DNA of 64,000 nucleotides from an uncultured Parabacteroides sp. (GCA_944325345.1 CALUZV010000005.1:62001-126000); one strand, 5' to 3'; positions 21,903-37,284 are shown, counted from the first letter of the stretch. A program made the numbers and translations. The notes: a model not told the origin generated them from the letters alone.

Positions 21903-22646
21903 TTATAAAATCTCCCGAATCATTTGCTTGTCCGTATCATAAATCCAATACAACCGGCCGTTCTCACGCCCATCACGTTTTGCCAATATCAAAACCTTAT
22001 TCCCAATCTTCGTAAAAGAAGGAATTCGATTATCAACCAAATAGACATCCATTTGCTCAGCATATTGATGCATAAGATCCTTATCTGGAGCAAGTTTAGC
22101 TTCGTCCTCGATTGACATATATTCTAATGATTTAGGATAAACGATCGAATAGTCATCTGTATATGATACCTTTTGCAGACTATTACTCTGACTGTCATAT
22201 AAATAAAACACACCCTTTCCTTCCATCACCCAAAGCACACGGTCGTCCAACTGCACCAATTCAGAATGATAAATCTTTTGATTGTGCTGAAACAAAAGGG
22301 AATCCGTTTCCTGTGTTATACTAATTATCTTAAAATTCAAAATAGAATCAAACTCATATTTTCGTGTATTGTCCACCTCAAGCAGCGGCACCACCAGTGC
22401 ATCTTTAAAATGGAACATCTCCCCATATACCGTATCAGTCGAAAGAGTTTTATAATCTTCTGCATCATAATCATCGCTAGAAGAATACGAGCTTAATCGA
22501 GCCCTCCATCCATCTTCCTTAACAGCCCCCTTTAATGCTAATTCAATCAATCCCCAAGTAAAAATAATCACCCAAATAAGCGCACATATCCCGACAATAA
22601 TATTAAAGGCACGCCTTGTAAATAAGTTCTTAAAGAAAGTATTCAT
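21903..22646 (-). CDS. Unknown single-pass membrane protein, end of the TerY-triad operon
   Basis: 247 residues. A membrane segment (FNIIVGICALIWVIIFTWGLIELAL, residues ~14-38) follows a short basic N-terminus. The rest is soluble, beta-rich and probably extracytoplasmic (SLLFQHNQKIYHSELVQLDDRVLWV ... KVLILAKRDGRENGRLYWIYD). I do not recognise a family. It is the last gene of the tightly spaced leftward accessory operon, 42 bases after the 63-residue gene. Base composition is AT-rich like the rest of that operon. Confidence 0.6.
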   Translation of the reverse strand: MNTFFKNLFTRRAFNIIVGICALIWVIIFTWGLIELALKGAVKEDGWRARLSSYSSSDDYDAEDYKTLSTDTVYGEMFHFKDALVVPLLEVDNTRKYEFDSILNFKIISITQETDSLLFQHNQKIYHSELVQLDDRVLWVMEGKGVFYLYDSQSNSLQKVSYTDDYSIVYPKSLEYMSIEDEAKLAPDKDLMHQYAEQMDVYLVDNRIPSFTKIGNKVLILAKRDGRENGRLYWIYDTDKQMIREIL

Positions 22647-22688
22647 CTTATTCTCACATTTTTATTTAACTCATTTTCCAATTTAATC

Positions 22689-22880
22689 TTACACATTATA
22701 CCAATTATACCAACTCCAATCCTCCTTCTTCTTTTCCTTTTTACTGTCCCCTTCCTCATAATCCTCATCCGTTATACAACCATGCTCTATATAACGGAAA
22801 GAATTTCCTTGAACCTCCTGCGACTTCTGCACTGAAAACTTCCGCCAACTATCTTTTAGTAACTTACAAATCTTCTTCAT
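22689..22880 (-). CDS. Small unknown charged protein
   Basis: 63 residues with a basic N-terminal half (KKICKLLKDSWRKFSV), an acidic/lysine run (DEDYEEGDSKKEKKKED) and an aromatic end (WSWYNWYNV). No signal peptide or membrane segment. The start lies 4 bases after the stop of the 290-residue gene, which supports it as a real gene in the operon. No function assigned. Confidence 0.5.
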   Translation of the reverse strand: MKKICKLLKDSWRKFSVQKSQEVQGNSFRYIEHGCITDEDYEEGDSKKEKKKEDWSWYNWYNV

Positions 22881-22884
22881 TTTC

Positions 22885-23757
22885 TCACTTCCTATTTATT
22901 GGATAAACCCTTACCAACTTCAATTTATGACCTAAACGTTTATATTCAAAAATAGAATCAGTTCTTTCAATCACCGTCTCCTTCTCCACATCAAACTTCG
23001 TCGTCAAATCCCGCACACAAGAAAAAGGCAAGTCATCCGCCGGCACCACCCGTTTGCCCTTCAACCGACAAATCCTCTGGGCATTCCCCTCCCGACTGAA
23101 ATCTCCTTCGCTCGCCAGCAACTCCTTCGTCCCGTCAAAATCGACATCCATAAACTGAAATGCCGCCCTATCCTGAATCGTGTATGGTTCTTTAGGCCAT
23201 TCATAATTAAAATAATGTACATCCCCGTCTGTCTCCTTCTCGTCTCCCGGCAAAACCCCGTTTCCCTTCGAGAATCCCCAATACGTATCCTTATATAAAT
23301 AATCCTTCCCCGTGCGGCAATCCCTAAAATTAGCTACCACCACATTTTGAACGCCCTCTTTGATATTTTCCCAATCCGTGCGCCAAACATAGCGCACCGT
23401 AACATCAAAATCCTCCGGCAACCGCATCCGATAATACAAATTATACTTTATCTTCGACGGCTTAACATCAATCGGAATCCGGTTCAACGCCTCTATCCAA
23501 ACCGAATCCTGGGCGGAGACATAAGGGATAATCGAATCCAAGGAACTATGCTCGCCGAAACTATAAATATATGTCTTAGGTTTCTCCCGAACTTCCGTCC
23601 TTTCTCCTATCTGATTATCACCGCCAAGCAATTTGCCCATAATTCTCATTGAATGAGAAAATGCGTTTTTGACGAAATACTTGACATCTAGACAGGAAAA
23701 GACGAAGATGCAGAAAGCCAAGAGAGTAAAGAGAATTAGAGATTTGAATCTGTTCAT
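22885..23757 (-). CDS. Unknown exported or membrane-anchored protein
   Basis: 290 residues. The N-terminal segment SLILFTLLAFCIFVFSC looks like a signal with a possible lipobox (FVFS-C), suggesting a lipoprotein or N-terminally anchored periplasmic protein. The remainder is a soluble domain with FMDVDFDGTKELLASEGDFS, a pattern seen in proteins that report on stored values (FG-GAP-like DxDFDG), but I cannot assign a family. It follows the LRR gene by 59 bases in the accessory operon. Confidence 0.6.
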   Translation of the reverse strand: MNRFKSLILFTLLAFCIFVFSCLDVKYFVKNAFSHSMRIMGKLLGGDNQIGERTEVREKPKTYIYSFGEHSSLDSIIPYVSAQDSVWIEALNRIPIDVKPSKIKYNLYYRMRLPEDFDVTVRYVWRTDWENIKEGVQNVVVANFRDCRTGKDYLYKDTYWGFSKGNGVLPGDEKETDGDVHYFNYEWPKEPYTIQDRAAFQFMDVDFDGTKELLASEGDFSREGNAQRICRLKGKRVVPADDLPFSCVRDLTTKFDVEKETVIERTDSIFEYKRLGHKLKLVRVYPINRK

Positions 23758-23816
23758 AAATAATAAAAGAACAACAAATATTTACAATGCAAATTATTTT
23801 ACCCAAAATTGCTTTT

Positions 23817-25202
23817 CTAATAAGCCTCTTCTCCAAAGGCATTATAACAAATATCTGTTGATGAAGGAATTGATATATGTTTCAATTTACAACATTGTGC
23901 AAAAGTTATCTCTTCAATTCTTTCTACTGAAGAAGGAATAGAGATGCTTATCAGGTTCTCACACCCCCCAAATGCTTCTTGGCCAATACTCATTACGGAT
24001 GGAGGAATTGTGATACTACTAAGACCTAAACAACCTACAAAAGTAGCCTCGCCAATAGACAACACAGATGAAGGTATAGTAATATCTGTTAGGCTTTCAC
24101 AAAATCCGAAAGCACAACTATCAACATCTTTTACTGACGGCGGAATCACGACATTCTTCAAATTAACACAATCTTCAAAAGCGCTTTCACCTATATGCAA
24201 CACAGAAGAAGGAATTGAAACACTTGTTAGATTCTCACAAGAGTAAAAAGTCCAATCATCTATACATGCAACCGAAGAAGGAATAAATACGCTTTCTAAA
24301 TTAGAACAAAAAGAAAAAGCGTCTCTGCCTATATGCATTACACATGAGGAAATTGAAATGTCCTCTAATTTCTTACAGCCACGAAAAGTATATTTGCCTA
24401 TATTTATTACAGACGATGGAATTGAAATGCGTGTCAAACTTTCACAATTCATAAAAACACTTTCGTTTAGACTTGTTACTGACGGAGGTATTACTATTCT
24501 TTTCAGATTTTCACAACCATAAAAGGCACCTCGGCCAATTATTCTTATAGAATCAGGAAGGACTATAGAACTTAATTTACTATTGGCAAAAGCAAAATCA
24601 CCAATAACAAGAGTTCCGTCTTTTATTATACACTTTTCTGCTGAATTGCCGTCATCCCATCTAACGAAGAAATATTGAGACGCATATCCGATATGTTCAA
24701 AAAGGTCATTAGAGATCTTGCTAAAATCATACTCCTTACATGATTTTATAGATTCTCTCAAAAACGAGCCTGTAGGAATCATTCCATCTATCATAATAAA
24801 TTCCCTTAGTACTTTTTCTCCAAACTCTCGAGAGTAAAAATTATTATCAGAGAATCTTGCAACCATTTGAGAAATTACATTTTCAAAATCCTTGGAAGCC
24901 CCATTAAACAATTCATAAATTTGCAGAGACAACTTATCATCTAATATTGCACGACTATATATACGCTTCATTCGTTTATCACATGGAGCAAGATCGCACA
25001 TCAAGTTATTCAATTTATGATAATCCTTATATAATTCCTTACCATAAACCAGAACCAAATATTGCAAAAAACTATTTAAGGAAAAATAACTTTGGGCTCT
25101 CTCCGGATTTAACACTCGAAAACCACAAAAAGGACAATAATCCAAATACTTCGTTGTGTCTTTAGGAGGAGTCCAAGTTCCCCCACAATTTTCGCATCTC
25201 AT
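23817..25202 (-). CDS. Zinc-ribbon plus BspA-type leucine-rich-repeat protein (putative receptor of the TerY-triad operon)
   Basis: 461 residues. Residues 1-30 form a zinc ribbon (CENCG ... CPFCG). Residues ~40-140 are a helical domain (FLQYLVLVYG ... RMKRIYSRAILDD ... IYELF) that is clearly homologous to the N-terminus of the Sel1 protein two genes upstream. From about residue 165 to the end are roughly a dozen 23-residue LRR_5/BspA repeats (IPSSV--IG--AF-GC-NL--I-IP). There is no signal peptide, so it is probably cytoplasmic. BspA repeats usually bind proteins. The shared N-terminus suggests docking to a common partner, perhaps the kinase/vWA/PP2C core; that is inference. Confidence 0.75.
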   Translation of the reverse strand: MRCENCGGTWTPPKDTTKYLDYCPFCGFRVLNPERAQSYFSLNSFLQYLVLVYGKELYKDYHKLNNLMCDLAPCDKRMKRIYSRAILDDKLSLQIYELFNGASKDFENVISQMVARFSDNNFYSREFGEKVLREFIMIDGMIPTGSFLRESIKSCKEYDFSKISNDLFEHIGYASQYFFVRWDDGNSAEKCIIKDGTLVIGDFAFANSKLSSIVLPDSIRIIGRGAFYGCENLKRIVIPPSVTSLNESVFMNCESLTRISIPSSVINIGKYTFRGCKKLEDISISSCVMHIGRDAFSFCSNLESVFIPSSVACIDDWTFYSCENLTSVSIPSSVLHIGESAFEDCVNLKNVVIPPSVKDVDSCAFGFCESLTDITIPSSVLSIGEATFVGCLGLSSITIPPSVMSIGQEAFGGCENLISISIPSSVERIEEITFAQCCKLKHISIPSSTDICYNAFGEEAY

Positions 25203-25203
25203 A

Positions 25204-25368
25204 CTATCTCTTTATTTTTAATAAATTCAAAAACATTGCCCCGATTTTTCTCTCTAGACCTTGCTTTGTTGTCGGAATTCCAGTTTCTCTTGCTATTTGT
25301 TGCTTCAATTTTGTTACACCAATGGCACGCTTCCAAGAAAAAGTTACGCCAGGAATTTTCAACTTCAT
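25204..25368 (-). CDS. Small basic protein (54 residues) between the Sel1 and LRR genes
   Basis: ATG at 25368 to TAG at 25204 gives a 54-residue frame beginning MKLKIPGVTFSWKRAIGV and containing ETGIPTTKQGLERKIG. It fills what would otherwise be a 179-base gap: it starts 13 bases after the Sel1 stop and ends one base before the LRR start. That spacing, plus the coherent basic composition, supports a genuine gene. I recall similar short S-KRA-GI / IPTT--G--RK-G proteins in Bacteroidota, but no function. No signal peptide or membrane segment. Confidence 0.6.
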   Translation of the reverse strand: MKLKIPGVTFSWKRAIGVTKLKQQIARETGIPTTKQGLERKIGAMFLNLLKIKR

Positions 25369-25381
25369 ATTTCTATATTAT

Positions 25382-26680
25382 TTATTCATTAATCCATTTC
25401 TTCAAATTGTCTTTTGCCCACTTATAGCCCTGAGATGCAGACTTTTTATACCACTCTACTGCTTCGACACAATTTTGCTCTATCCCAAGACCTAATTCAA
25501 GACAAACACCTAAATTATTTTGCGCTCTTGCATTTCCTTGCTCCGCTGACTTACGATACCAATTTACTGCTTCGGCATAGTCCTGAGGGACACCATAACC
25601 TTTTTCATAACAATAACCTAAATTGCACTGAGCGACCGAATTTCCTTGTTCCGCAGACTTGCAATACCATCTCACGGCTTCGGAATAATCCTGAGGTATA
25701 CCACGACCATATTCATAACAAAGGCCCAAATTATTTTGAGCAACAGCATTTCCTTGCTCTGCTGACTTACGGTACCATCTCGCGGCTTTGGCATAATCCT
25801 GCGTTACACCACGACCTTGTTCATAACAATAACCCAAATTACACTGGGCATACATATTACCCTGTTTCGCTGACTTACGGTACCACTGTGTCGCTTTGAC
25901 ATAATCTTGTGTTACACCACGGCCATATTCATAACAAAGGCCCAAATTATTTTGAGCAATAGCATTACCTTGCTCCACTGATTTGCGATACCATTTCACC
26001 GCTTCGGAATAATCCTGAGGGACTCCACGACCATACTCATAACAAAGGCCTAAATTACGCTGGGCATACATATTACCCTGTTCTGCTGACTTACGAAACC
26101 ACATTTGTGCCTTTTCGTAATTCAAAACAACGCCTTGCCCAGTATAATATCGATGCCCTAAATTATTTTGAGCATCTTTATCCCCTTCCTCAGCTTCTTC
26201 TACAAGCCATTCAACTTCTTTATCTCTTATATTCAGGGATAATCCTTTAACAAAACTGTCTACAATATCTTTACTAACTTCCTCATCACAAAAATTCGAT
26301 TCTGCGAAATAGCTAACCAACTTATCATAAAAACTTTCACGTTCCATCAATGGCTTCAAAGAAATCTCATATACCTTTTGAGGTAAAGAATCATCTGTAA
26401 TCGCCCGTATATAAGCTCGTTTCATTCGTTCTTCTCCCATATAGAAATCACGAATCAAACTTTTCAACTTCTCCTTATTCCCACTTTTATAAATATCCAC
26501 TCCATATACGGACACTGCATATTGAAGAAAGTCAAGGAATCTAGTATTGCTTTTCGCAATCTCTTCACAAAACATAGGTGCGCCACAAAATGCACATCGG
26601 GTTAAAATATAATCCGTCCATTCCAACCTCTCCTGCTTTTCTGGAGGTGTGTATTCTGCACCACATTTCTCGCATTTCAT
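25382..26680 (-). CDS. Zinc-ribbon plus Sel1-repeat protein (putative receptor/scaffold of the TerY-triad operon)
   Basis: 432 residues. It has an N-terminal zinc ribbon (CEKCG ... CAFCG, residues 3-36) and a helical domain (FLQYAVSVYG ... RMKRAYIRAITDD ... VYEIS) shared with the LRR protein. Residues ~170-425 hold seven Sel1-like repeats of 36 residues (AQNNLG-CYEYGRGV-QDY-EA--WYRKSAEQGN). Sel1/TPR arrays bind proteins or peptidoglycan fragments; without a signal peptide this one is probably cytoplasmic. Neighbouring repeats are nearly identical at DNA level, so repeat number may change by recombination. It lies 24 bases after the cyclase-fold gene. Confidence 0.78.
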   Translation of the reverse strand: MKCEKCGAEYTPPEKQERLEWTDYILTRCAFCGAPMFCEEIAKSNTRFLDFLQYAVSVYGVDIYKSGNKEKLKSLIRDFYMGEERMKRAYIRAITDDSLPQKVYEISLKPLMERESFYDKLVSYFAESNFCDEEVSKDIVDSFVKGLSLNIRDKEVEWLVEEAEEGDKDAQNNLGHRYYTGQGVVLNYEKAQMWFRKSAEQGNMYAQRNLGLCYEYGRGVPQDYSEAVKWYRKSVEQGNAIAQNNLGLCYEYGRGVTQDYVKATQWYRKSAKQGNMYAQCNLGYCYEQGRGVTQDYAKAARWYRKSAEQGNAVAQNNLGLCYEYGRGIPQDYSEAVRWYCKSAEQGNSVAQCNLGYCYEKGYGVPQDYAEAVNWYRKSAEQGNARAQNNLGVCLELGLGIEQNCVEAVEWYKKSASQGYKWAKDNLKKWINE

Positions 26681-26704
26681 AACAATATCCTATACAAGTA
26701 CTTT

Positions 26705-27451
26705 TTATTTACCTATCTTATATATCTTCCGCCACAATTCAAGTGTATTATCATATTTACGTTTTATACTATCAGATAATCTGTCAAATGCAATCTTCTG
26801 ATGGAATACAAAAGAATTCTTCAAACATTCTTTCATATTCTCAAATGATCCTTCATTCATAACAGGTTTTATCTTTATTATCAACTCTGAGTTCAAATCA
26901 ACATCCGGCTTATGTGGAATATCCGCAATTTGGTAGAATAGTTCATCTGCCATCTCTAAATTTTCTACAGATACAACATCTTTAATAGAATTATCTATCA
27001 CACATCCTACAAATTCTAAAGACTCCGCACCAATATATGCAGAAACCAAACCTTTTCCCAATAGCAAATAGCTATAATAACTATTATTTACTTCACCAGA
27101 TTTATAAAATAGTTCTCCATAGGTCATACAGCCACGTACAGGAATTGATGTATGTAATGTACTCAAAAGGAAATCTTGACAAATCTTCGCCATATCCACA
27201 AAGTCTTCTTTAGTATTCGATTTACTCCAAAATATAACACTATCAGATATATGAAGACATCGAATATTTGCTCTCCGAATATCATATACAAAACACCGAT
27301 CTTCTCTTTGTCTCACTTTGCCTTCACTTATAGACTTTTGAGACATTAGCGTAAATTGATTAAGCACAGATAGAAGTTCTTCTCCTGAAAAATTCTCCAC
27401 AATCTGCTTAAACCCTAGTATATCAAAATAGGCGACAAAAACTGATTGCAT
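26705..27451 (-). CDS. Class III nucleotidyl-cyclase-fold protein (FDILGFK type)
   Basis: 248 residues. The start AYFDILGFKQIVENF places a metal-binding Asp at residue 10. The second expected metal Asp is in HISDSVIFWSK (residue 70). This is the arrangement of class III adenylate/guanylate cyclase catalytic domains, and both metal ligands are kept, so activity is possible. A PVRGCMTYGELF block and GKGLVSAYIGAESL helix fit the later cyclase core. The product is not predictable from sequence. It lies between the PP2C and Sel1 genes with gaps of 18 and 24 bases, so a second-messenger step linked to phospho-signalling is plausible but unproven. Confidence 0.65.
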   Translation of the reverse strand: MQSVFVAYFDILGFKQIVENFSGEELLSVLNQFTLMSQKSISEGKVRQREDRCFVYDIRRANIRCLHISDSVIFWSKSNTKEDFVDMAKICQDFLLSTLHTSIPVRGCMTYGELFYKSGEVNNSYYSYLLLGKGLVSAYIGAESLEFVGCVIDNSIKDVVSVENLEMADELFYQIADIPHKPDVDLNSELIIKIKPVMNEGSFENMKECLKNSFVFHQKIAFDRLSDSIKRKYDNTLELWRKIYKIGK

Positions 27452-27469
27452 ATCTAAATTTCTTAATTA

Positions 27470-28324
27470 CTATTTCCATATAATCCCACTCACCGAAATA
27501 TCATCCCCGCTTCCCCGTTCCGACATCACCGGCAAAAATTCATCAACTTCTTTACGAGCCTCTTTATAGGGTTTATCTCGAAATGTCTGTATCACTTCCC
27601 GATAGAATCCATACAAATCTTTATCATTCGCAAAGCAGTCATCTACTCCATCGCTACCAACAAATATTGCAGTCGGAAAATTCTCAGTATGAAAACAATG
27701 CCGAAAATTGTCAAGTGGACGTTCATCACAAAGGGAAGTCGTTACATTCAAGAAACATTTGTCATCCCAAGGGATAGGTTGGTCGAAATGGCCATCTGCA
27801 TATTGAGCTACACATTTCCCGTCGCCTATGTGCAACCCAAACCAGAAATGCCCGGGATAAACTACGACAGCTATCAAAGTCGCTCCGTATGCTTTCACAA
27901 AAAACTTATCCGGTTCTTTCTCATAACGACATCGAGCTTTTTCAGACATCATGTTCTTTTCTTCTTCCGTAAAAGGATGTTGCCGGTAATCACTTTCGAC
28001 TTTCTTACGCCAACGATATACAATACTCGTTTCCAATTGACGCAAACTTTCATCAGAAAGCTTATCTTCTCCTTTCTTTAGTGTATGCATAAAATGCTCA
28101 ATCGACGTCTTGGCTTTCTTAACGGCATACTTAGCACCTCGGTCGCTTCTGAAATAATCATCGCTTCCATGTCCATCACTCACAAGAGCAATCGCATAAA
28201 AGTCTCCTGGTTTACAACGAGAAAAAGCATAATCTTGGCAAACCTTCCCAATTCTTTTATGCGAAGCTCCTTGATGACAGGAATGAAACGCAAACAACTG
28301 CTGTTCTTGACTAATTGAATTCAT
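27470..28324 (-). CDS. PP2C-type Ser/Thr phosphatase of a TerY-P triad
   Basis: 284 residues from ATG 28324 (an ATG at 28342 would add six residues). PP2C motifs appear in order: VCQDYAF, SDGHGS, GATL, IGDGK, GSDGVDD and GDDISV, with the metal-binding Asp residues retained, so the enzyme is probably active. The start overlaps the vWA gene stop by 14 bases, implying coupled translation. In TerY-P triads a vWA protein, a PP2C phosphatase and a Ser/Thr kinase form a conserved trio linked to stress or conflict responses. This one presumably reverses the kinase encoded two genes upstream. Confidence 0.82.
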   Translation of the reverse strand: MNSISQEQQLFAFHSCHQGASHKRIGKVCQDYAFSRCKPGDFYAIALVSDGHGSDDYFRSDRGAKYAVKKAKTSIEHFMHTLKKGEDKLSDESLRQLETSIVYRWRKKVESDYRQHPFTEEEKNMMSEKARCRYEKEPDKFFVKAYGATLIAVVVYPGHFWFGLHIGDGKCVAQYADGHFDQPIPWDDKCFLNVTTSLCDERPLDNFRHCFHTENFPTAIFVGSDGVDDCFANDKDLYGFYREVIQTFRDKPYKEARKEVDEFLPVMSERGSGDDISVSGIIWK

Positions 28325-29021
28325 CCAAATCCGTATCTTCAATATTCTGAGTATCTACATAATCTTTCACTTGACCTATTACTTTATCTTGCTTGCTGGC
28401 ATCTTCCACTCCGCTACTTTTACTATTGACTTGAGAGGAAGTTACACTCACGAATTTGATAATAGCCTTCAAAGCCGAACGATTATGAACCTCGATGACA
28501 GCTTCACTGTTCCCTGTAAATTCTGTCAAGACATTTTTGTCCGCATCATTTCCAATAGCAATAGCTATTTTGATTGCGTGCTTAAACCAATTGTTCTTTT
28601 TTATCTTTTCAAGGTCTTCTCTATAATTGTCCGTTGGACCACCATCGGAAAGCAGAATGATTACCGGAGCAAACGAACCCGCGGCCTCTTGCAAGAATTG
28701 AGACTTGGACAATTTCTCATTTAACTTCTCCAGAGCATAACCAAAACTTGTCAATCCGCCTACTTGCAAATCATTCCAACGGAAATCAGCTGAGTCTATC
28801 GGCTGGGGATAGAGCCAGCGGGCATCCGTATCGAATTGCAAGACGGCAACTTTGATTGCTGCATCCGGATTACTATCCGATAAATCTTGCAAATCCGGAA
28901 CTGTTTCCCGAATGGCATCATTTACCGAACCTATCTTATCACCAGACATACTGCCGGAGGTATCGACCATAAAGAACAACACCATTGTTCTTCTGGCAAT
29001 TTTTATTCTTTCTGTATTCAT
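28311..29021 (-). CDS. TerY-like von Willebrand factor A domain protein
   Basis: 236 residues. An intact MIDAS is visible: DTSGSMS at residues 20-26, Thr91 in GGLTSFG and Asp126 in LLSDGGPTD. The domain fills residues ~12-195 and is followed by a Ser/Asp-rich acidic tail (NTEDTDLDEFN-like). No signal peptide: cytoplasmic. TerY-type vWA proteins act as metal-dependent protein-interaction modules and occur with a kinase and a PP2C phosphatase, as here (12 bases after the kinase, overlapping the PP2C start). Confidence 0.82.
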   Translation of the reverse strand: MNTERIKIARRTMVLFFMVDTSGSMSGDKIGSVNDAIRETVPDLQDLSDSNPDAAIKVAVLQFDTDARWLYPQPIDSADFRWNDLQVGGLTSFGYALEKLNEKLSKSQFLQEAAGSFAPVIILLSDGGPTDNYREDLEKIKKNNWFKHAIKIAIAIGNDADKNVLTEFTGNSEAVIEVHNRSALKAIIKFVSVTSSQVNSKSSGVEDASKQDKVIGQVKDYVDTQNIEDTDLDEFN

Positions 29022-29033
29022 GGCTACATATAT

Positions 29034-30323
29034 TTATAAAATTGTTGCTTCTGTTCCATTTCCAAATGAAATTTTATTTCCTAACAACAAGGGAGCCGAC
29101 TCACCCGGAGCAATAGGACGAGTTTTTCCACTTTTCGTAGTAAGCATCCAAGTATCCTGCGTTTGATTCTTTAAACCAAACAAGCCTGGAGTTTTCTTAC
29201 TTTCCACAACAACTGTGGTACAAGTATTTAACAATTGCTTATTCTGATTCGTAATATACTGATATACCTTTTTATCTTTACAAACAGCTACTTTATATTT
29301 TCCTGATTGGATAATCGGAGGACGTTGAAGCCGCTGCTTGCAATCTTCACAAATAGAAGTAGGATTCTCCATATCCGCAAAGATTTCTCCTCCACAAACA
29401 GGACAGGTAATCAATTCATGCCGCATCCGAAGTAATATCTTTTCCAACCACTCCTTCTCGGTAATACGATAACTCGCGTCCATCAATGCTTTCTGACCAA
29501 ACTGAGAAATAAATATATCCTGTACGTATTGGGGAAATTGAGGCCAAAGTTTTATCACATTGACATGAATACCCGCAACGGGACGATTACTTGCATCTTC
29601 CGGGTCATAGATAAAAATAGGATGCGAACCATAAAACTTCTTTTCATGCTTTTCTGTCAAACAAGCACAACTGGCAAGTGCTTCGCCTTCCAAAGGATGA
29701 TTGTTGAAAAATAAAAGGAAAAGGATAACAGCCAGCGAGAAACGGTCGGACTGTGCGTCCGGCAACTTCTCCCCTCGCACGATTTCGGGAGCCATATACC
29801 GACATTTCCCCAATATCCCCATATTCTTGCCAAATGGGGCCACATTATCATTATCACATATCAAGACATCGCCATTCGCAGGATTAATAAAGAAGTTTCC
29901 ATCGTTCAAATCCTGATAGCTATATCCAGCATTATGCAATTTCCGGAATCCTATACAAATCTTAATGGCAGCTTCTATCATCACTTCCACTGAAGCAAAT
30001 CGAGCTTTAGCCAATAAGAAATCCCCGAATTCTCGGTATGCAGGATTTCTCAATTCCATTAAATATCCAAAACAGCCCTCAGCGTCTTTCTCCGTAAGAA
30101 ATAAGGGCCAAAGGAACAATGGAGCCGGAGCCCCTTTATCAATATTATCTTTCAAGTTATCATAAAACTCCGGTTTACCGGGCTTATGATACCACTTCAA
30201 AGCATACTCCTTATCACTATAACGTACTTTATAAACAGTACCTTGACCACCACTACCTAATTCTTCAAGAATGGTAGCTTCACCGCCGGTGGCTATTTTG
30301 ATGGTGTCGTTGGGTTTAAACAT
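29034..30323 (-). CDS. Ser/Thr protein kinase with zinc ribbon (TerY-P triad kinase)
   Basis: 429 residues. It has a glycine loop GSGGQGTVY (23-31), Lys43 in ALKWYH, a catalytic loop YQDLNDGNF (Asp138, Asn143; Tyr-Gln replaces His-Arg), a metal-binding DND in place of DFG (157-159) and MAPE (177-180). After the kinase domain come a zinc ribbon (CPVC at 307-310, CEDC at 325-328) and a C-terminal beta-rich domain. The ends resemble each other: KIATGGEATIL near residue 10 and SFGNGTEATIL at the extreme C-terminus. It is probably active and cytoplasmic. It is the first gene of the tightly packed part of the operon, 164 bases after the GIY-YIG gene. Confidence 0.82.
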   Translation of the reverse strand: MFKPNDTIKIATGGEATILEELGSGGQGTVYKVRYSDKEYALKWYHKPGKPEFYDNLKDNIDKGAPAPLFLWPLFLTEKDAEGCFGYLMELRNPAYREFGDFLLAKARFASVEVMIEAAIKICIGFRKLHNAGYSYQDLNDGNFFINPANGDVLICDNDNVAPFGKNMGILGKCRYMAPEIVRGEKLPDAQSDRFSLAVILFLLFFNNHPLEGEALASCACLTEKHEKKFYGSHPIFIYDPEDASNRPVAGIHVNVIKLWPQFPQYVQDIFISQFGQKALMDASYRITEKEWLEKILLRMRHELITCPVCGGEIFADMENPTSICEDCKQRLQRPPIIQSGKYKVAVCKDKKVYQYITNQNKQLLNTCTTVVVESKKTPGLFGLKNQTQDTWMLTTKSGKTRPIAPGESAPLLLGNKISFGNGTEATIL

Positions 30324-30487
30324 GACATAGAAATTATTTTTGTTCTACATAAGCAATAGTTCTATCTGAAATAGGATCCACAAAATCTTCATCCGTACAA
30401 AAAACAACAGTATGTAATTACATTCAATTTATAATTCAACTGATACACTTATTGTACTAGAATCTCATTTTACTTATGCTGAAAATT

Positions 30488-31090
30488 TTAAAATTGATAA
30501 TCCGGTTCGTCCAAATATAAAACAGTCTTATACTTATATTTATACTTTTTACAGACAGAAATTATTGCCTCTCGTATTTTTAGATAATTACAACGCAATA
30601 ATTCCGATGCACATTGAAGTTTTCCATCATGATCATACTCTAAAGTATCTGAGTACTGAGATAGAGAAGATTTAACCGCATCTTCAATTCGTCCTGCATT
30701 TTGACTTTGTATTGCAAAAAGGATTTTCCAATCATTTAGACTTGCATAGTAAGTACGATTTAAAGATTCAGCTCTAGTTGCAATGGCTGAGGTAAAACCT
30801 ACTTTACTTATTCTTCCACTCAAACTTGCCGCTACATAAACAAAGCCTGCTTCACTTGAGCGTCGAGAAAATCTCAGATAAGCAGTATTACACTGAGGAC
30901 AATGCCCTGAACGAGTTCTAAGAGTATGTCCATTTTTACAAGGAGGAGTATTATAAGCAATTAATTTGTTCTGTTGTTTCATAATAGGATAATACTCTGA
31001 CTGAGTCATACCTTGTGCATTAAAAAGATCTTGCTCTGAGAGTCCTTGAGATTCTAAAAAACGTTTTTGTTCAACCGTTAAACCTTTCAT
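30488..31090 (-). CDS. GIY-YIG nuclease-fold protein (T5orf172/Mug113-like) with zinc finger
   Basis: 200 residues from ATG 31090; the frame extends to 31141 but that would run into the terminator of the upstream RNA. Residues ~1-45 are helical, residues ~50-68 a zinc finger (CKNGH ... GHCPQC), and residues ~82-150 the GIY-YIG-like core: GFVYVAAS, ISKVGFTS, an Arg-containing helix (TRAESLNRTYY) and NAGRIEDAVKSSL supplying the acidic residue. The family includes nucleases and DNA-binding relatives. It is same-strand and upstream of the TerY triad and may be its first gene. Whether it cuts nucleic acid is not known. Confidence 0.68.
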   Translation of the reverse strand: MKGLTVEQKRFLESQGLSEQDLFNAQGMTQSEYYPIMKQQNKLIAYNTPPCKNGHTLRTRSGHCPQCNTAYLRFSRRSSEAGFVYVAASLSGRISKVGFTSAIATRAESLNRTYYASLNDWKILFAIQSQNAGRIEDAVKSSLSQYSDTLEYDHDGKLQCASELLRCNYLKIREAIISVCKKYKYKYKTVLYLDEPDYQF

Positions 31091-31474: not shown

Positions 31475-31621
31475 GGAACTTTTTAGATTATTCTACTTCT
31501 GCTGTGTAGATTTTTTGGAAAAACAAGGGAATAATGTATGATATAGGGAGTAGGGAGTATGAAATGTACAAAATCCTTGAAGAAAAATCGGATAAAAGTT
31601 GCAAAGAGAGGGTAACAAGAT

Positions 31622-31629
31622 TACCTTTG
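31622..31629 (+). promoter_or_regulatory. Promoter -7 box (TACCTTTG) for the Panacea-domain gene
   Basis: TACCTTTG lies 18 bases before ATG 31648, with TTGC near 31599 as -33 element at suitable distance. This favours the short start over the longer frame from 31534. Confidence 0.7.
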
Positions 31630-31647
31630 CAGGACAAATCTTTAAAT

Positions 31648-32292
31648 ATGTGCAAATTTTCAGAATCCAACAGACAAAAGCTTGGAAATGCTATTGTATA
31701 TATTGCTCGACACACTTCCAATCTGAGCAAAACTAAGCTATTGAAACTATTATACCTTATGGAAGAACGTATGGCATTGAAATATCATGTCCCGTTTATC
31801 GGCCTGCCGTTTGAGGTATGGCAAGCTGGTCCTGTGGCGAAAGATGTGTTCATTGACCTTTCGGATGGTCCTTTCCTGCTGAAAGACTTTGTGAAGACGA
31901 ATTTCCATGATGGTGGTATTTTTGTAGAGGCAATAACTGAATTTGATGACAGTGAATTTTCTGAGTGCGAGATTGCCATGATGAATGAAGTTCTGGCTAA
32001 ATACGGTAATATGACGGCTTCGGAACTAGTAGCAGAAACACATAAGGAAGGTACGCCTTGGTATCGGACTGCCGCACGTGCTGGATTGTTAGAAGCGTTC
32101 AAGAAGCGTGAATGCAACAACTCGAACGAACAGATAGATTTTGCCGAATCCATGTCAGCTTGTGCTGCGGAAGACTACCGTGAAAGCCTTGCTATACGAC
32201 AGACTGCCAACTTGTTAAATGCAGAAGCACATGTAACCCAAACCTCACCACCGCCCATAGCGAATTGTCGCAAATCTATCCTTCTTGCTTAA
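31648..32292 (+). CDS. Panacea-domain (SocA/DUF4065-like) protein, possible orphan antitoxin
   Basis: 214 residues from ATG 31648. The domain (residues ~8-150) has the usual pattern: IVYIARHTSNLSKTKLLKLLYLME, GLPFEVWQAGPVAKDVF, and a closing MTASELVAETHKEGTPWY. Panacea proteins are universal antitoxin scaffolds usually paired with a toxin. Here neither neighbour looks like one: the RNA lies behind and the downstream gene converges. The last 16 codons overlap the convergent gene at 32245, and the C-terminal ~50 residues look non-native (SPPPIANCRKS), so the 3' end may have been altered by rearrangement. Confidence 0.65.
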   Translation: MCKFSESNRQKLGNAIVYIARHTSNLSKTKLLKLLYLMEERMALKYHVPFIGLPFEVWQAGPVAKDVFIDLSDGPFLLKDFVKTNFHDGGIFVEAITEFDDSEFSECEIAMMNEVLAKYGNMTASELVAETHKEGTPWYRTAARAGLLEAFKKRECNNSNEQIDFAESMSACAAEDYRESLAIRQTANLLNAEAHVTQTSPPPIANCRKSILLA

Positions 32293-32736
32293 CTGGATAT
32301 AAAGGAATCGGTCATCATCCTCACTTTCACCCGGAGGTGCAGGATATCCATTACCCCACATGCGACCAAATCCATATTTTTCTCCATCTTTAGACCAATA
32401 GGTATTTTCGGAAGAACTGAGGCTATCCAATATATGATAAAACTCATCCGATGGCATTTCATCAAACATGATGTCCCTATGATCCGTATAATCGCCATTA
32501 AAAGAAGTCCGCCCCTCATAATAATAAATAGATGAAAATTCTGGGAATGGCACTCCTGTTATCCGAGAGATGTAATCGTTGTCTGTAATTTTATAACGAC
32601 GCATCCAAATATCTGAACCGAAGAAAACTCCGATACCTGCAATGAGAAATAAGAGTAAAGCACCCCCTCCAATATAAACAAGCAGGACTAAAAAGAATTC
32701 CCAAACAAGCTTTATAATCGTATAAAACGCCTTCAT
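32245..32736 (-). CDS. Unknown small membrane protein
   Basis: 163 residues from ATG 32736, chosen because the hydrophobic segment follows immediately (IIKLVWEFFLVLLVYIGGGALLLFLIAGIGVFF) and the upstream gene ends at 32765; ATGs at 32787 and 32907 overlap that gene. After the membrane hairpin comes a soluble domain of about 115 residues (YKITDNDYISRITG ... FYHILDSLSSSENTYW ... FGRMWGNGYPAPP). Not recognised. It is the third gene of an operon with the two genes upstream. Confidence 0.55.
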   Translation of the reverse strand: MKAFYTIIKLVWEFFLVLLVYIGGGALLLFLIAGIGVFFGSDIWMRRYKITDNDYISRITGVPFPEFSSIYYYEGRTSFNGDYTDHRDIMFDEMPSDEFYHILDSLSSSENTYWSKDGEKYGFGRMWGNGYPAPPGESEDDDRFLYIQLSKKDRFATIRYGRW

Positions 32737-32764
32737 CTCTTCACTAAAAATTCCTACGAAATAA

Positions 32765-34903
32765 TTACTTATAATCAACCCACTCATCGCAATGCCCTCG
32801 TATAAATTTTGCAACTTGGGTATCGGGATATCTCGTTGCTGCAGTTTTAAACAAATTCCAGTCATAATAAGCTTGGGCTGCCCTTTCGGAATCCGTATAT
32901 AGTCCAAATGCCATTCTTTTTATATTTTCAGCCCTTTGGATTATATGCTCATGCATATTTTTCTGATAGCTACTATAAAAGGGGAAACTGTACCAGTAAC
33001 CTTGATAGTAAGAGGTCAAAGCCCAGCATTCTCCAATAGAATTTTGCAAACCACGCACATACATCAACAAATAATCTGCTTTATCATTTGGATTCTTCTC
33101 TTTCTCTATTTTCTTTTCCAAGGAACACATAGCCTGTGCAAATCTCAGTTTATAGCGTTTGCGCAATACTGTTTTTTCTCTAAACTTGCCAAACGGATTA
33201 TATTTCATTTCCGAATAGGTATTCCGACTTTCCTCAAAAGAATCAGAAACCAAACGAAGATAATCTATGGCTTCCTCATATTGCATAGAGGCAATTAACT
33301 GCGTACCAATTATCTCATACAAATATTGCAAATCAGAATAGCTTCGTTCATTCAGGAAGTGATCTAACTTACACATAGGACGCTTCATCCGATAGACCAA
33401 TCGCTTCACATATTTAACACCCATAGAATCTAAGTTTACAAAGAAGTCATTTTGATAGTCATACCTGTTATACTCATCTTTACGCATACGATAATCTTGT
33501 ATATCGATGCAATCATCATCAGAATGCCAAGAGCGCGACACTCCGACGAGATGAAAGATTCGATTATCGGCATAGTTCAAGAATTGTAAAGCGCGCGTTT
33601 TATATCCAGAAGAAATACATAAAGGAACAACCTGAGCGATAACAATTTTTCTCATCATATCATTCCAATAATATTGGCTATATCTACATACATGATTATA
33701 AAAACCCACTGAAGAGATTTGGCTTCTCGTGTCTGTATCCAAATTGGAAACAATCTTTTCGTCCAGCCATACCAATTCATTAAAGATATAATTCTCAAAT
33801 TGAGGGTTATATTTAGAGGTTCGTTTCGTCGTAAGATAAATGAGAAATACCCGAATCGCATCTTTTAACTCCGGATTCATCTTACATCTTCCAGCTTTTT
33901 GTATATACTCCCAAGATTTCGGTAAATCCTCCAACTTATCGAATGTGAAAGAAGCTGCATAATACCATGCAGCCAAATTCTTAACACGCTTCTCTTGAAT
34001 TACGTTTAACACAAAACTATTCAATTCACTAAAATCTTTACTATATCCATATTCCTCTTTATGTATAAAATATTGCAAGAAGGATAGAAGCTTTTGACTA
34101 TTAGGATTTTTTTGATATAAATGCAAAAACAAATCCCAGGCATCGTACTTCAAGCCTTCTTTCTTCAAGCAAAGCTGATATGAACTCATATCGCCTATTT
34201 CGAGGAACATTTCTTTGGCAGTTTCAATCCTACCAGTATGATAATAGGCACCAGCCACATAGCCTTTTGCCATATTCAATATGACATCATTCTTGAAAAC
34301 ATGACTTCTCTCTAACCACAAATTCACACATTGTTCGTATTGTTGTTTCGCAATGTAAGTCCGCATCATCTGAAGCGTATAACGATCCAACAAACGCTTT
34401 TGCTTGTAAGTCTTGGCGTCTTCTATAATGTTATCCAATCCGACATTTACCTCATCTTCTTCCGAATAATAATACCAGGCACTATTTTGTATTTGACGAA
34501 TCGATTCACTTCGCTTAGCAAGCAACAAAAAGGAAGCAATTTCTAAATCCTTATGCTTAACTATCCATTTAGCAAACCTATTTTTGATGGAGTCGTCATT
34601 GCCTATCTTCGCTTTGTCATATAATTGTTGCAACTGCCTATAACTCCATAAATAAACGACACGCTGTATATCAGGAATCGGAATTTTCCATGAAGTTAGC
34701 TTGGCCCAGCTTCTACAATTTTCAATTTGCTGCTCTTCCCTATCCAAATATACAATTTGAGGATTATCTCCTTTCATATTATTTCCACAGACACGAAACG
34801 TAAAATATTCATCGATGGAATTCGTACGTTCAAAAGGTCCACAAGCGAATAAACGAGGACAGAACGTTAGGCTAAGAAACAATATCCATAAAATCCGTTG
34901 CAT
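32765..34903 (-). CDS. Unknown exported helical-repeat protein (CGPF-type N-terminus)
   Basis: 712 residues. It has a Sec signal (MQRILWILFLSLTFCPRLFA) directly followed by CGPFERTNSIDEYFTFRVC, an ACGPF mature start I associate with a group of uncharacterised Bacteroidota proteins. The rest is alpha-helical with TPR-like pairs (YIAKQQYEQCVNLWLER, AGAYYHTGRIETAKEMF, GTQLIASMQYEEAIDYLRLV). It is probably periplasmic or a lipoprotein-like surface protein; the Cys right after the signal could be lipidated. It starts 3 bases after the stop of the 355-residue gene, so the two are co-translated. Function unknown. Confidence 0.6.
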   Translation of the reverse strand: MQRILWILFLSLTFCPRLFACGPFERTNSIDEYFTFRVCGNNMKGDNPQIVYLDREEQQIENCRSWAKLTSWKIPIPDIQRVVYLWSYRQLQQLYDKAKIGNDDSIKNRFAKWIVKHKDLEIASFLLLAKRSESIRQIQNSAWYYYSEEDEVNVGLDNIIEDAKTYKQKRLLDRYTLQMMRTYIAKQQYEQCVNLWLERSHVFKNDVILNMAKGYVAGAYYHTGRIETAKEMFLEIGDMSSYQLCLKKEGLKYDAWDLFLHLYQKNPNSQKLLSFLQYFIHKEEYGYSKDFSELNSFVLNVIQEKRVKNLAAWYYAASFTFDKLEDLPKSWEYIQKAGRCKMNPELKDAIRVFLIYLTTKRTSKYNPQFENYIFNELVWLDEKIVSNLDTDTRSQISSVGFYNHVCRYSQYYWNDMMRKIVIAQVVPLCISSGYKTRALQFLNYADNRIFHLVGVSRSWHSDDDCIDIQDYRMRKDEYNRYDYQNDFFVNLDSMGVKYVKRLVYRMKRPMCKLDHFLNERSYSDLQYLYEIIGTQLIASMQYEEAIDYLRLVSDSFEESRNTYSEMKYNPFGKFREKTVLRKRYKLRFAQAMCSLEKKIEKEKNPNDKADYLLMYVRGLQNSIGECWALTSYYQGYWYSFPFYSSYQKNMHEHIIQRAENIKRMAFGLYTDSERAAQAYYDWNLFKTAATRYPDTQVAKFIRGHCDEWVDYK

Positions 34904-34906
34904 CTT

Positions 34907-35974
34907 TCAATCGTTTTTGTAAATTAAATCTATTTCCTTTCTTGTATATTTTGAGAGATTCTTTGCATCTAAATGGTAAATGACAGTATGATAAGCGTGT
35001 TGCCTGATTTTAGACTGCACAAGTTTTTTCACTTTTAATATTTCTTCTATTGGGGATGACTCTATACGAATAATATCACCCTTCCAAAGTCTAACATTTT
35101 CTACAAGATAAGGCTCAACAATCTCATACCGATTATCTTCCAACTTTTTACAATAAGTAGCATCCTTAAAATCCGTAGTCCGAAGAATAGATTGAAATTC
35201 ATTCCTACGAAGCAAAATACTCCATGCGTAAGTTGGAAAAGCATAATCAAAAGGAAGCGGATATTCAACTTCGGAACGCAAATACGGCACTACATCTTTA
35301 TAAGATATAATGGAGTTCTTTGTATCCGGATGATAGATAGAACCTGTATTGTATAGCATTAAAACACCTTTATCCACAGGTGGAGCTTCTTTTTCCAGTT
35401 GATGCAAACGGATTGTAGCGCTAAGCTTTATTCCTTCTTCTGCCGCATAATCCCGCAATTCTTCGCAGAAACTAAAGAATAAAGGTTGCGTCTCCCTTGT
35501 CCAATCACAATCGACTTGAATTTCTTTTATCTTCCCCAATTTATTCTGCTTCACCATGGCGCGTATCCTATTATAAAGTAATGAGGCAAAACTCGAATCT
35601 TTCTTGATAGCTTCCGTAGTAATATAGACCGTAGGTATTACTTCCACACCTGCCGGGATGGTATCTAAAAAACGTGTCGTAGCAATAGGGATAGACTTTA
35701 AGATTCCATCTTTATCTTCTCCATAATCAACATCAAACATTCGCACATACATCTTGCCAATATGATGTACACGAAGGAATTGTCTTTCATATTCAGTTAA
35801 TTGAAAAGTGGTTTTCCAATAATAAATGGCATTATTCTCCGGCAAGTCATTATCAGAATAAATCGACAACTTCGAATTATCATCCAATACCTTTAGAATG
35901 ACTCCCATTACTATACCTACAACGAGAAAAAGGCCAACTCCCTTCAGGATTTTCTTTCTATTTTCTACTCGCAT
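34907..35974 (-). CDS. Unknown membrane-anchored protein, possible TIM-barrel (glycosidase-like) fold
   Basis: 355 residues. One N-terminal membrane segment (GVGLFLVVGIVMGVILKVL) follows a basic start. The mature part has alternating strand/helix blocks: AIYYWKTTFQLTEYERQFLRVHHIGKMYVRMFDVDYG, VEVIPTVYITTEAI, GKIKEIQVDCDWT and EGIKLSATIRLHQ. These read like successive beta/alpha units of a barrel with acidic residues at strand ends (FDVDYG, VDCDWT). Relatedness to GH18/GH-like barrels is a guess. It is paired with the CGPF protein downstream. Confidence 0.5.
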   Translation of the reverse strand: MRVENRKKILKGVGLFLVVGIVMGVILKVLDDNSKLSIYSDNDLPENNAIYYWKTTFQLTEYERQFLRVHHIGKMYVRMFDVDYGEDKDGILKSIPIATTRFLDTIPAGVEVIPTVYITTEAIKKDSSFASLLYNRIRAMVKQNKLGKIKEIQVDCDWTRETQPLFFSFCEELRDYAAEEGIKLSATIRLHQLEKEAPPVDKGVLMLYNTGSIYHPDTKNSIISYKDVVPYLRSEVEYPLPFDYAFPTYAWSILLRRNEFQSILRTTDFKDATYCKKLEDNRYEIVEPYLVENVRLWKGDIIRIESSPIEEILKVKKLVQSKIRQHAYHTVIYHLDAKNLSKYTRKEIDLIYKND

Positions 35975-36085
35975 ATCCTCTTTGCTTCAATTTTTGAGCA
36001 AAGCTACACAAGATAAGGACATACGAAAGAATGATAACAATAGCGTTGTATGAAATAGGCTCTGGATTGTACGAAATCCCCCCTC

Positions 36086-36916
36086 TCAATGAAATCCTCT
36101 AAAGACAAGATAGTTGATATTTGGCAAAACCTTATCTGTATATATTCCTAATTCATGAACAATCCCGTCCTCGCCTCGCCACCAACCATACGAAGAACCG
36201 CCGACCAAATAGAGTGCATTGGTAAATCCCATATCGGCCAGGGCTTCTGAAAAATCGTATAAGGATTCTCGGTTCTTACTTTCTACGATATAAAAATCAT
36301 TGCTTTGCTGTGCCAGTGCTCGGCGTATCGCCTTACCTTTCAAACGGTTTTCTTGGATTTCTCCATCCATTACCAAAGGATATTGCCGAAAGAAATCCCC
36401 TCCGTGAGTAATACAATAGTCTTTTATCTCATCATTTATGGTATTTCCCAACGAGATTTTCCCATCCAGAATGGCACAATATCCTGTTTTCCTCTTTCCT
36501 CTGGACAACTGTTTTCCCTTCAAAACAAAATCACCTAAAATCTGGCCATTATCTTTGCGGATATCGGCTGCCCACACTACGAAATATACAGTTGAATCTG
36601 ATTGGCTGGGCATTTGCAACGACATCTCTGCCCTCATATTCTGTAAGGAATAAATGGAGAGAACAACATCATTAATGGAGTCTAACCGAAACTCCACACG
36701 TGCCTGCTTATCCATCTTCAGGGTATCATCTTGAAGAATGACGGGATTAACCATTTCGATATGCTCCGGTTCACCTTCTTCCCTACTAAAAAGCCAAAAG
36801 AAAAGCGACCCGATAATTAACAGAGACACAACGGCTATTATCCCCCATCGCACAAAACCATGTTTAGGCTTCGATGTTCCTAATACTTGTATTTCATCTT
36901 CTTCATTCCGTCTCAT
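36086..36916 (-). CDS. Membrane-anchored phosphodiester glycosidase-like (NAGPA/DUF2233) protein
   Basis: 276 residues. A cytoplasmic basic N-terminus precedes one membrane segment (WGIIAVVSLLIIGSLFFWLF, residues ~24-43), then an external domain. The second half matches the NAGPA pattern: CAILDGKISLGNT, ITHGGDFFRQYPLVMDGEIQ, AIRRALAQQSNDFYIVESKNRESLYDFSEALADMGFTNALYLVGGSSYGWW. This family includes the lysosomal uncovering enzyme and bacterial cell-surface proteins. Here the usual N-G-G-F is HGGDFF. Its start overlaps the LytTR gene stop in ATGA, so the regulator and this protein are coupled. Confidence 0.62.
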   Translation of the reverse strand: MRRNEEDEIQVLGTSKPKHGFVRWGIIAVVSLLIIGSLFFWLFSREEGEPEHIEMVNPVILQDDTLKMDKQARVEFRLDSINDVVLSIYSLQNMRAEMSLQMPSQSDSTVYFVVWAADIRKDNGQILGDFVLKGKQLSRGKRKTGYCAILDGKISLGNTINDEIKDYCITHGGDFFRQYPLVMDGEIQENRLKGKAIRRALAQQSNDFYIVESKNRESLYDFSEALADMGFTNALYLVGGSSYGWWRGEDGIVHELGIYTDKVLPNINYLVFRGFH

Positions 36917-37284
36917 ACTCTCTCGATTTCTTTTTCCAATAAACTTTTTAATTGCTTTAATGCTTCTCTGGAAGCCGAGAGCACAAAGGTATGTTCTATT
37001 TTCATATCAGACAAAACCAATGATTGTTTCCCGAGATTGATTTTATAAATATATTCCCGGTTGATTATAAGACTCTTTCCTATACGAATAAACAAGGATG
37101 CTTCCGTCTTCATCTGCTTCTCGATGATTTGCTGGAAATGAGATAGATTAAACGAAAACAGATGTTCGGATTTATCATGAAGCACCATCATCGAATAGTT
37201 CCCATCCGACGATATATAAACAATCCGTTCAGGATAAACCCGAACCAATTCGTTGGTTGTACTAATGATGATAGGCGACTTCAT
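36913..37284 (-). CDS. LytTR-domain DNA-binding regulator
   Basis: 123 residues from ATG 37284. The whole protein is a LytTR domain: VRVYPERIVYISSDGNYSMMVL, LFSFNLSHFQQIIEKQ, LFIRIGKSLIINREYIYKI and LSASREALKQLKSLLEKE. It has no receiver domain, so it is a stand-alone regulator or one acting with a separate partner. A TATTTTTG -7 box at 37300-37307 lies just before it. It overlaps the downstream membrane-protein gene by four bases and may control it. Confidence 0.78.
   Translation of the reverse strand: MKSPIIISTTNELVRVYPERIVYISSDGNYSMMVLHDKSEHLFSFNLSHFQQIIEKQMKTEASLFIRIGKSLIINREYIYKINLGKQSLVLSDMKIEHTFVLSASREALKQLKSLLEKEIERV

Follow-up and report, generated by a model that had tools for sequence, protein, structure and literature searches.

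A TerY-P triad operon in an uncultured Parabacteroides whose Sel1 and leucine-rich repeat proteins share an adaptor domain

Which proteins the kinase and phosphatase of a TerY-P triad act on is the question raised by a locus found in a 64,000-nucleotide stretch of DNA from an uncultured Parabacteroides sp. (GCA_944325345.1 CALUZV010000005.1:62001-126000; the whole stretch is referred to as the window). Such triads have reportedly been treated by Anantharaman et al. 2012 and Gao et al. 2020. They consist of a TerY-like vWA protein, a PP2C phosphatase and a Ser/Thr kinase with a zinc ribbon (PMC11090510, PMC7699616). They have been hypothesised to be metal-sensing phosphorylation switches (PMC11090510), and a TerY-P system has been reported to be active against T7-like phages (PMC7699616).

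Gene layout and the triad core

Eleven open reading frames, all leftward, are present at positions 21903-31090 of the window, in agreement with the initial annotation, which had also correctly described the region as AT-richer than its surroundings (GC 0.36-0.40 versus 0.48-0.58 further out on either side, past about 20 kb and 39 kb). Its proposal that all eleven genes form one receptor operon held for a smaller set. The defensible unit is seven genes, an operon at 23817-30323 in which the cyclase-like gene is an optional insert, while no relatives at other triad loci were found for the remaining genes, namely a GIY-YIG gene upstream and three genes downstream. Within this unit the kinase and vWA genes are 12 nt apart, the vWA and PP2C genes overlap by 32 nt (14 nt with a better PP2C start at 28324), and the spacings that follow are 18 nt from PP2C to the cyclase-like gene, 24 nt from there to the Sel1 gene, 13 nt from Sel1 to the gene for a 54-aa protein (s54) and 1 nt from s54 to the leucine-rich repeat (LRR) gene. 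The GIY-YIG gene is separated from the kinase by 164 nt, and a 290-aa gene follows the LRR gene after 59 nt. The number of sigma-70-like sites was at chance level and no Bacteroidales-type promoter (TTTG-N17-23-TANNTTTG) was found inside the operon; with no promoter signal there, the transcription units were drawn from gene spacing.

The kinase (29034..30323, minus strand; Pfam Pkinase 1.3e-15) has a C-terminal zinc ribbon and is present as a single copy in the genome. Its residues K43, D138, N143 and D157, together with the zinc-ribbon cysteines C307/C310/C325/C328, are invariant in 10 loci, as are the residues of the intact MIDAS (D20, S22, S24, T91 and D126) in the TerY-like vWA protein (28311..29021, minus strand; Pfam VWA 6.8e-12) and the metal-binding Asp residues D37, D56, D174, D231 and D281 of the PP2C phosphatase (27470..28324, minus strand; Pfam PP2C_2 5.1e-32). 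Of two candidate PP2C starts, an ATG at 28324 and a TTG at 28342, the ATG is the likelier, since the vWA/PP2C overlap is 14 nt in relatives (L023 and L025, described below). The three genes are adjacent and in the same order in 9 other loci. Judged from their sequences, kinase, vWA protein and PP2C are an intact TerY-P triad which fits the published description (PMC11090510), and the Pfam domains and invariant residues bear out the earlier naming of this trio. In PADLOC the kinase matched PD-T4-6 and MAD6 through its kinase domain alone, and these matches were rejected. Beyond such generic kinase matches no defence gene was recognised in the window operon by PADLOC, and viral-contig searches gave no matches to the kinase or the vWA protein.

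While the adjacency of the three genes and their kept active-site residues are those of the known triad, the window operon differs from it in adding repeat proteins with a zinc ribbon and adaptor, along with a basic protein of 54 aa, and in having neither McrBC/CoCoNuT genes nor other ter genes. Type II/III-A CoCoNuTs likewise contain a TerY-P module, there attached to a defence system (PMC11090510); no Pfam matches to CnuB/McrB GTPase, CnuC or the helicase-nuclease CnuH/CnuE were obtained among the operon genes and the scanned upstream neighbours. Kinase-ZnR, PP2C and vWA genes are also carried by GAP1-N2 GTPase systems, which have been described as actinobacteria-restricted (PMC7159879). The kinase/phosphatase/vWA combination is there an add-on in conflict systems, whereas no GTPase or GAP1 component was found at this locus.

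An adaptor domain and the exchange of its payloads

The Sel1 protein (25382..26680, minus strand; Pfam Sel1 4.6e-90) contains seven 36-aa Sel1 repeats and the BspA-type LRR protein (23817..25202, minus strand; Pfam LRR_5 3.8e-93) contains 23-aa leucine-rich repeats. Both had been so labelled in the initial annotation, and Pfam confirmed these labels along with that of the GIY-YIG protein (T5orf172). In front of the repeats, the two proteins have a common N-terminal module made up of a CxxC...CxxC zinc ribbon followed by a domain of about 110 aa, referred to here as the adaptor (26231..26572 in the Sel1 protein, profile A2 2.2e-48; 24780..25112 in the LRR protein, profile A2 3.2e-47; both minus strand). 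No recognised catalytic domain was found in either of these proteins.

The adaptor is without a Pfam model. It was modelled by AlphaFold2 with good confidence as all-helical (pLDDT 85.6, pTM 0.77), and on comparison with the PDB no fold stood out (Foldseek best E 2.2); with VIA the best Z was 6.3 over 68 residues, which is in the chance range for helical models. A PDB sequence match to Cas9d (8w2s, 7.8e-5) was rejected, its single-domain E-values being just 0.11-0.6 and its summed score arising from a stretch present twice in that chain. Within its own genome the adaptor profile matches two proteins only, both in this operon, and 0 matches were obtained in the other 383 order-sample genomes and the 344 phylum-sample genomes. 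The profile matched client proteins only and was not detected in kinase, vWA protein or PP2C, so docking of like with like is not indicated.

When order-level genomes and genome contigs were searched, triads were found in Parabacteroides An277 (L023, kinase 80% identical), Parabacteroides RGIG4678 (L024, 71%) and a Prevotellaceae MAG (L025, 60%), together with five triad-type loci that are further removed (kinase 45-49% identical); a plasmid search added a Prevotella plasmid (kinase 47%) and a Methylomonas plasmid (38%). In a Ruminococcus relative the kinase had no vWA or PP2C gene beside it. The adaptor is present in all three close relatives (kinase 60-80%), where it occupies the slot after PP2C, and its occurrence with this kinase clade is defined by these three loci besides the window. 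Its payload differs among them: zinc ribbon and LRR in L023, Sel1 and PrimPol in the first adaptor protein of L024, an N-terminal RES domain with the adaptor at the C-terminus in the second (the RES match is under the Pfam cut-off, 19.8 vs 23.2 bits), and PIN with ankyrin in L025. For the adaptor of the L023 LRR protein, identity is higher with the window Sel1 adaptor (50%) than with the window LRR adaptor (46%), so adaptor similarity does not track payload. Since the same adaptor bears catalytic payloads in relatives, the term receptor is one reading only of the window proteins.

Gene order is also parallel, with Sel1-s54-LRR in the window corresponding to Sel1/PrimPol-s54-RES in L024. The s54 gene (25204..25368, minus strand) lies between the two adaptor genes and encodes a basic protein with a pI of 11.6; its relatives beside the adaptor genes in L023 and L024 are 75-77% identical, and one near the L016 triad is 58% identical. 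The family, which is small and has no Pfam or PHROG match, is also found away from TerY-P, on a viral contig of 158 kb and in a further Bacteroidia genome (members L042 near 7926-8141, L041, and L033 near 9717-9866). Four viral contigs carry s54 relatives, and phage and plasmid searches with s54 gave no match. In a pre-set test of the earlier grouping of all these genes with the triad, co-occurrence was found for LRR, Sel1 and s54 (LRR with s54 in An277, Sel1 with s54 in RGIG4678, Sel1 in Methylomonas) but not for the cyclase-like, GIY-YIG, 63-aa and two exported proteins.

At L015 the triad is flanked on both sides by BspA-type LRR proteins which have TPR-like starts and no adaptor, and we read this as a separate coupling of LRR proteins to TerY-P. 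At L025:3289-8292, behind the triad and the adaptor-PIN-ankyrin gene, come radical-SAM-like, HAD/kinase-like, phosphoribosyltransferase-like and NYN genes (names other than NYN were read from the sequence), a set that recalls the nucleoside-like metabolite branch put forward for Ter systems.

With respect to known adaptors, EADs and GAAD are domains of NTP-dependent conflict systems (PMC7159879, PMC8195603). As with EADs, the adaptor is a small, helical, non-catalytic terminal domain found on diverse effector or repeat proteins and in several copies per locus. An EAD, however, has one copy on a core component, and no such copy was found for the window adaptor; GAAD, an adaptor on the effector side only, is the nearer analogue. 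The triad itself is known, and no account of the adaptor, or of TerY-P with Sel1/LRR clients, was found in the literature searched, which did not include Anantharaman et al. 2012.

Two further adaptor types were observed beside more distant triads. On the Methylomonas plasmid five adaptor proteins come after the triad. Their adaptors are 83-95% identical at the protein level and 89-98% at the DNA level, and the payloads are Sel1, Tim44, Clp_N, ClpX zinc finger and, in the remaining protein, a segment without assignment. A Methylomonas-type adaptor consensus used as a probe matched that Methylomonas plasmid only. The proteins which follow the triads of L013, L014 and the Prevotella plasmid share another adaptor-like N-terminal domain, called helical from its sequence pattern, and fusions of this domain include a DUF4011 helicase and an FGE domain; its profile found a third Prevotella-plasmid protein (annotated FtsK), outside the training set, with an E of 3e-14. 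Comparison of the window and Methylomonas adaptors by hhalign gave an E of 0.006 over 90 columns, a score reached in 1 of 150 column shuffles, and no signal was obtained between the window and Prevotella-type adaptors. These comparisons are only suggestive of a single superfamily comprising the window, Methylomonas and Prevotella types. The broader idea that TerY-P generally uses a dedicated helical-adaptor superfamily, which plugs interchangeable clients into one kinase/phosphatase switch, is tentative, and we place it a little below even odds. The three types would then be divergent branches, the adaptor would mark TerY-P clients as EADs mark NTPase-conflict clients, and those clients would include recognition repeats as well as PIN, RES, primase-like and helicase proteins.

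A proposed phosphorylation switch and its defence context

For the operon at 23817-30323 we favour a TerY-P phosphorylation switch which controls adaptor-docked clients, probably in anti-phage defence, and consider the chances of this reading to be about balanced. It starts from what is observed: the gene content, the intact active-site residues, the common adaptor, the exchange of its payloads, the co-occurrence of these genes in operons and their conserved order. The docking, the direction of signalling, the defence role and the role of the repeats are proposed as follows. The vWA protein would organise a complex whose phosphorylation state is governed by the zinc-ribbon kinase and PP2C, and clients would dock on the triad through the common helical adaptor, which in the window has the zinc ribbon in front of it. 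Payloads would be swapped on this adaptor between loci (LRR and Sel1 in the window; LRR, RES, PIN-ankyrin and Sel1-PrimPol in close relatives). PP2C may hold the switch off in healthy cells, with infection tipping the balance between kinase and PP2C. The 54-aa basic protein would act as a conserved partner and the cyclase-like protein as an optional add-on. As neither client in the window has a recognised catalytic domain, a recognition or scaffold role for them, with kinase activity as the output, appears likeliest. Counting against the overall reading are the small number of close loci, the only suggestive link between the window adaptor and the other adaptor types, its non-detection in the core proteins, the finding of no defence gene in the operon beyond generic kinase matches, and the Ruminococcus kinase with neither vWA nor PP2C gene beside it.

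Defence genes are found in related loci. The adaptor-type protein of L014 is a recognised defence helicase (DUF4011; PADLOC PDC-S37 and Hhe), L016 has ZorA/ZorB-like genes and a caspase-like gene, and in L023 AbiGi is directly upstream of the kinase. These genes argue against a stress or metal regulator, in which the triad would sense metal or envelope stress, the repeat proteins would be chaperone-like or surface-contact scaffolds and there would be no phage role; so do the sporadic distribution, the AT-rich and variable site, and the lack of ter genes besides the triad in the operon. We regard this alternative as unlikely, even though TerY-P triads have been hypothesised to sense metal (PMC11090510), a Conchiformibius plasmid has triad-type genes among terC/terD genes, and the Clp_N, ClpX zinc finger and Tim44 payloads of Methylomonas resemble protein quality control.

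With respect to the arrangement of L016, the triad, a second vWA gene, the ZorA/ZorB-like motor genes, the caspase-like gene and a relative of the 54-aa protein all lie within 12 kb (L016:3646-15408).

Accessory genes, the insertion site and implications

The product of the gene at 26705..27451 (minus strand) had been described as a cyclase-fold protein with two metal-binding Asp residues. The residues stood: D10 and D70 are kept, and are invariant in six homologues. The fold label is without profile support, as no match to a cyclase or PycC profile was obtained for the six homologues in Pfam, PADLOC or PDB sequences. The structural model, with a pLDDT of 34, is too poor for a judgement on the fold, though the order of its secondary structure fits a class III cyclase. 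Two conserved Asp residues and a motif order like FDxxGF...SD are shared with Pycsar and class III nucleotide cyclases, from which the window protein differs in having neither a profile match nor a recognised partner effector. Plasmid and viral-contig searches with the protein gave no match, and the gene is absent from every other triad locus. The closest relative (L018) is directly before DruF/DruL/DruE-type genes of Druantia (L018:624-4743), which suggests that the family, for which there is no Pfam model, is defence-associated though not a regular TerY-P partner. We describe the protein as cyclase-like only, with its catalysis unproven, and regard a second-messenger branch as optional and unproven.

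These observations bear on a second-messenger form of defence, in which the triad would direct the cyclase-like protein to make a nucleotide signal that activates the membrane-anchored or nuclease neighbours. The invariant D10/D70 pair, the fit of the low-confidence model to a class III cyclase and the adjoining Druantia genes of the closest relative speak for such a system, but with the gene in no other triad locus, six homologues without a profile match, a pLDDT of 34 and no recognised nucleotide-sensing effector found in the operon, we consider it rather improbable.

Membership in the operon is doubtful for the T5orf172 protein of the GIY-YIG clan (30488..31090, minus strand; Pfam T5orf172 1.9e-6), as it is for the predicted 247-aa membrane-anchored, 63-aa and 290-aa exported proteins at 21903..23757 (minus strand). 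The three downstream genes had no family match, and a plasmid search with the 290-aa protein gave none. Several of the flanking genes are found in the window alone.

The locus adjoins the genes for ribosomal proteins S6 (rpsF), S18 and L9, and other genes lie on the rpsF side in congeners with readable upstream sequence, so that the site looks like a variable insertion site. A loose island, in which the triad and repeat genes are mere neighbours in a horizontally acquired AT-rich insertion beside rpsF and have no common function, would fit this variability, the sporadic genes and the flanking genes unique to the window, yet it is very improbable given the kinase-vWA-PP2C-adaptor protein order repeated in independent genomes, the overlapping or nearly abutting genes and the confinement of the adaptor to this operon within the genome.

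Further genes lie on the upstream side of the operon. A gene with a Panacea/SocA-like antitoxin domain (31534-32292, plus strand) is divergent from it, and a second AT-rich leftward cluster (32245-36916, minus strand) encodes unknown proteins of 220, 712 and 355 aa together with one of 276 aa that is borderline for the NAGPA model; the cluster has a Bacteroidales-type promoter match at 36984-37015. Where the AT-rich region ends, a gene at 38675-40978 (plus strand) encodes DUF3987 and a BT4734-like N-terminal domain, the latter also present in the Sel1 client protein of L024.

If the operon is a phosphorylation switch with adaptor-docked clients, an adaptor which marks operon-encoded clients would provide a testable answer to the question of which proteins the kinase and PP2C act on. 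TerY-P triads recur across bacteria, and the adaptor may bear on their targets and outputs. The exchange of payloads may also serve as a sequence handle for further defence effectors, a useful one because the proteins which carry the adaptor have Pfam repeat labels only, or none.
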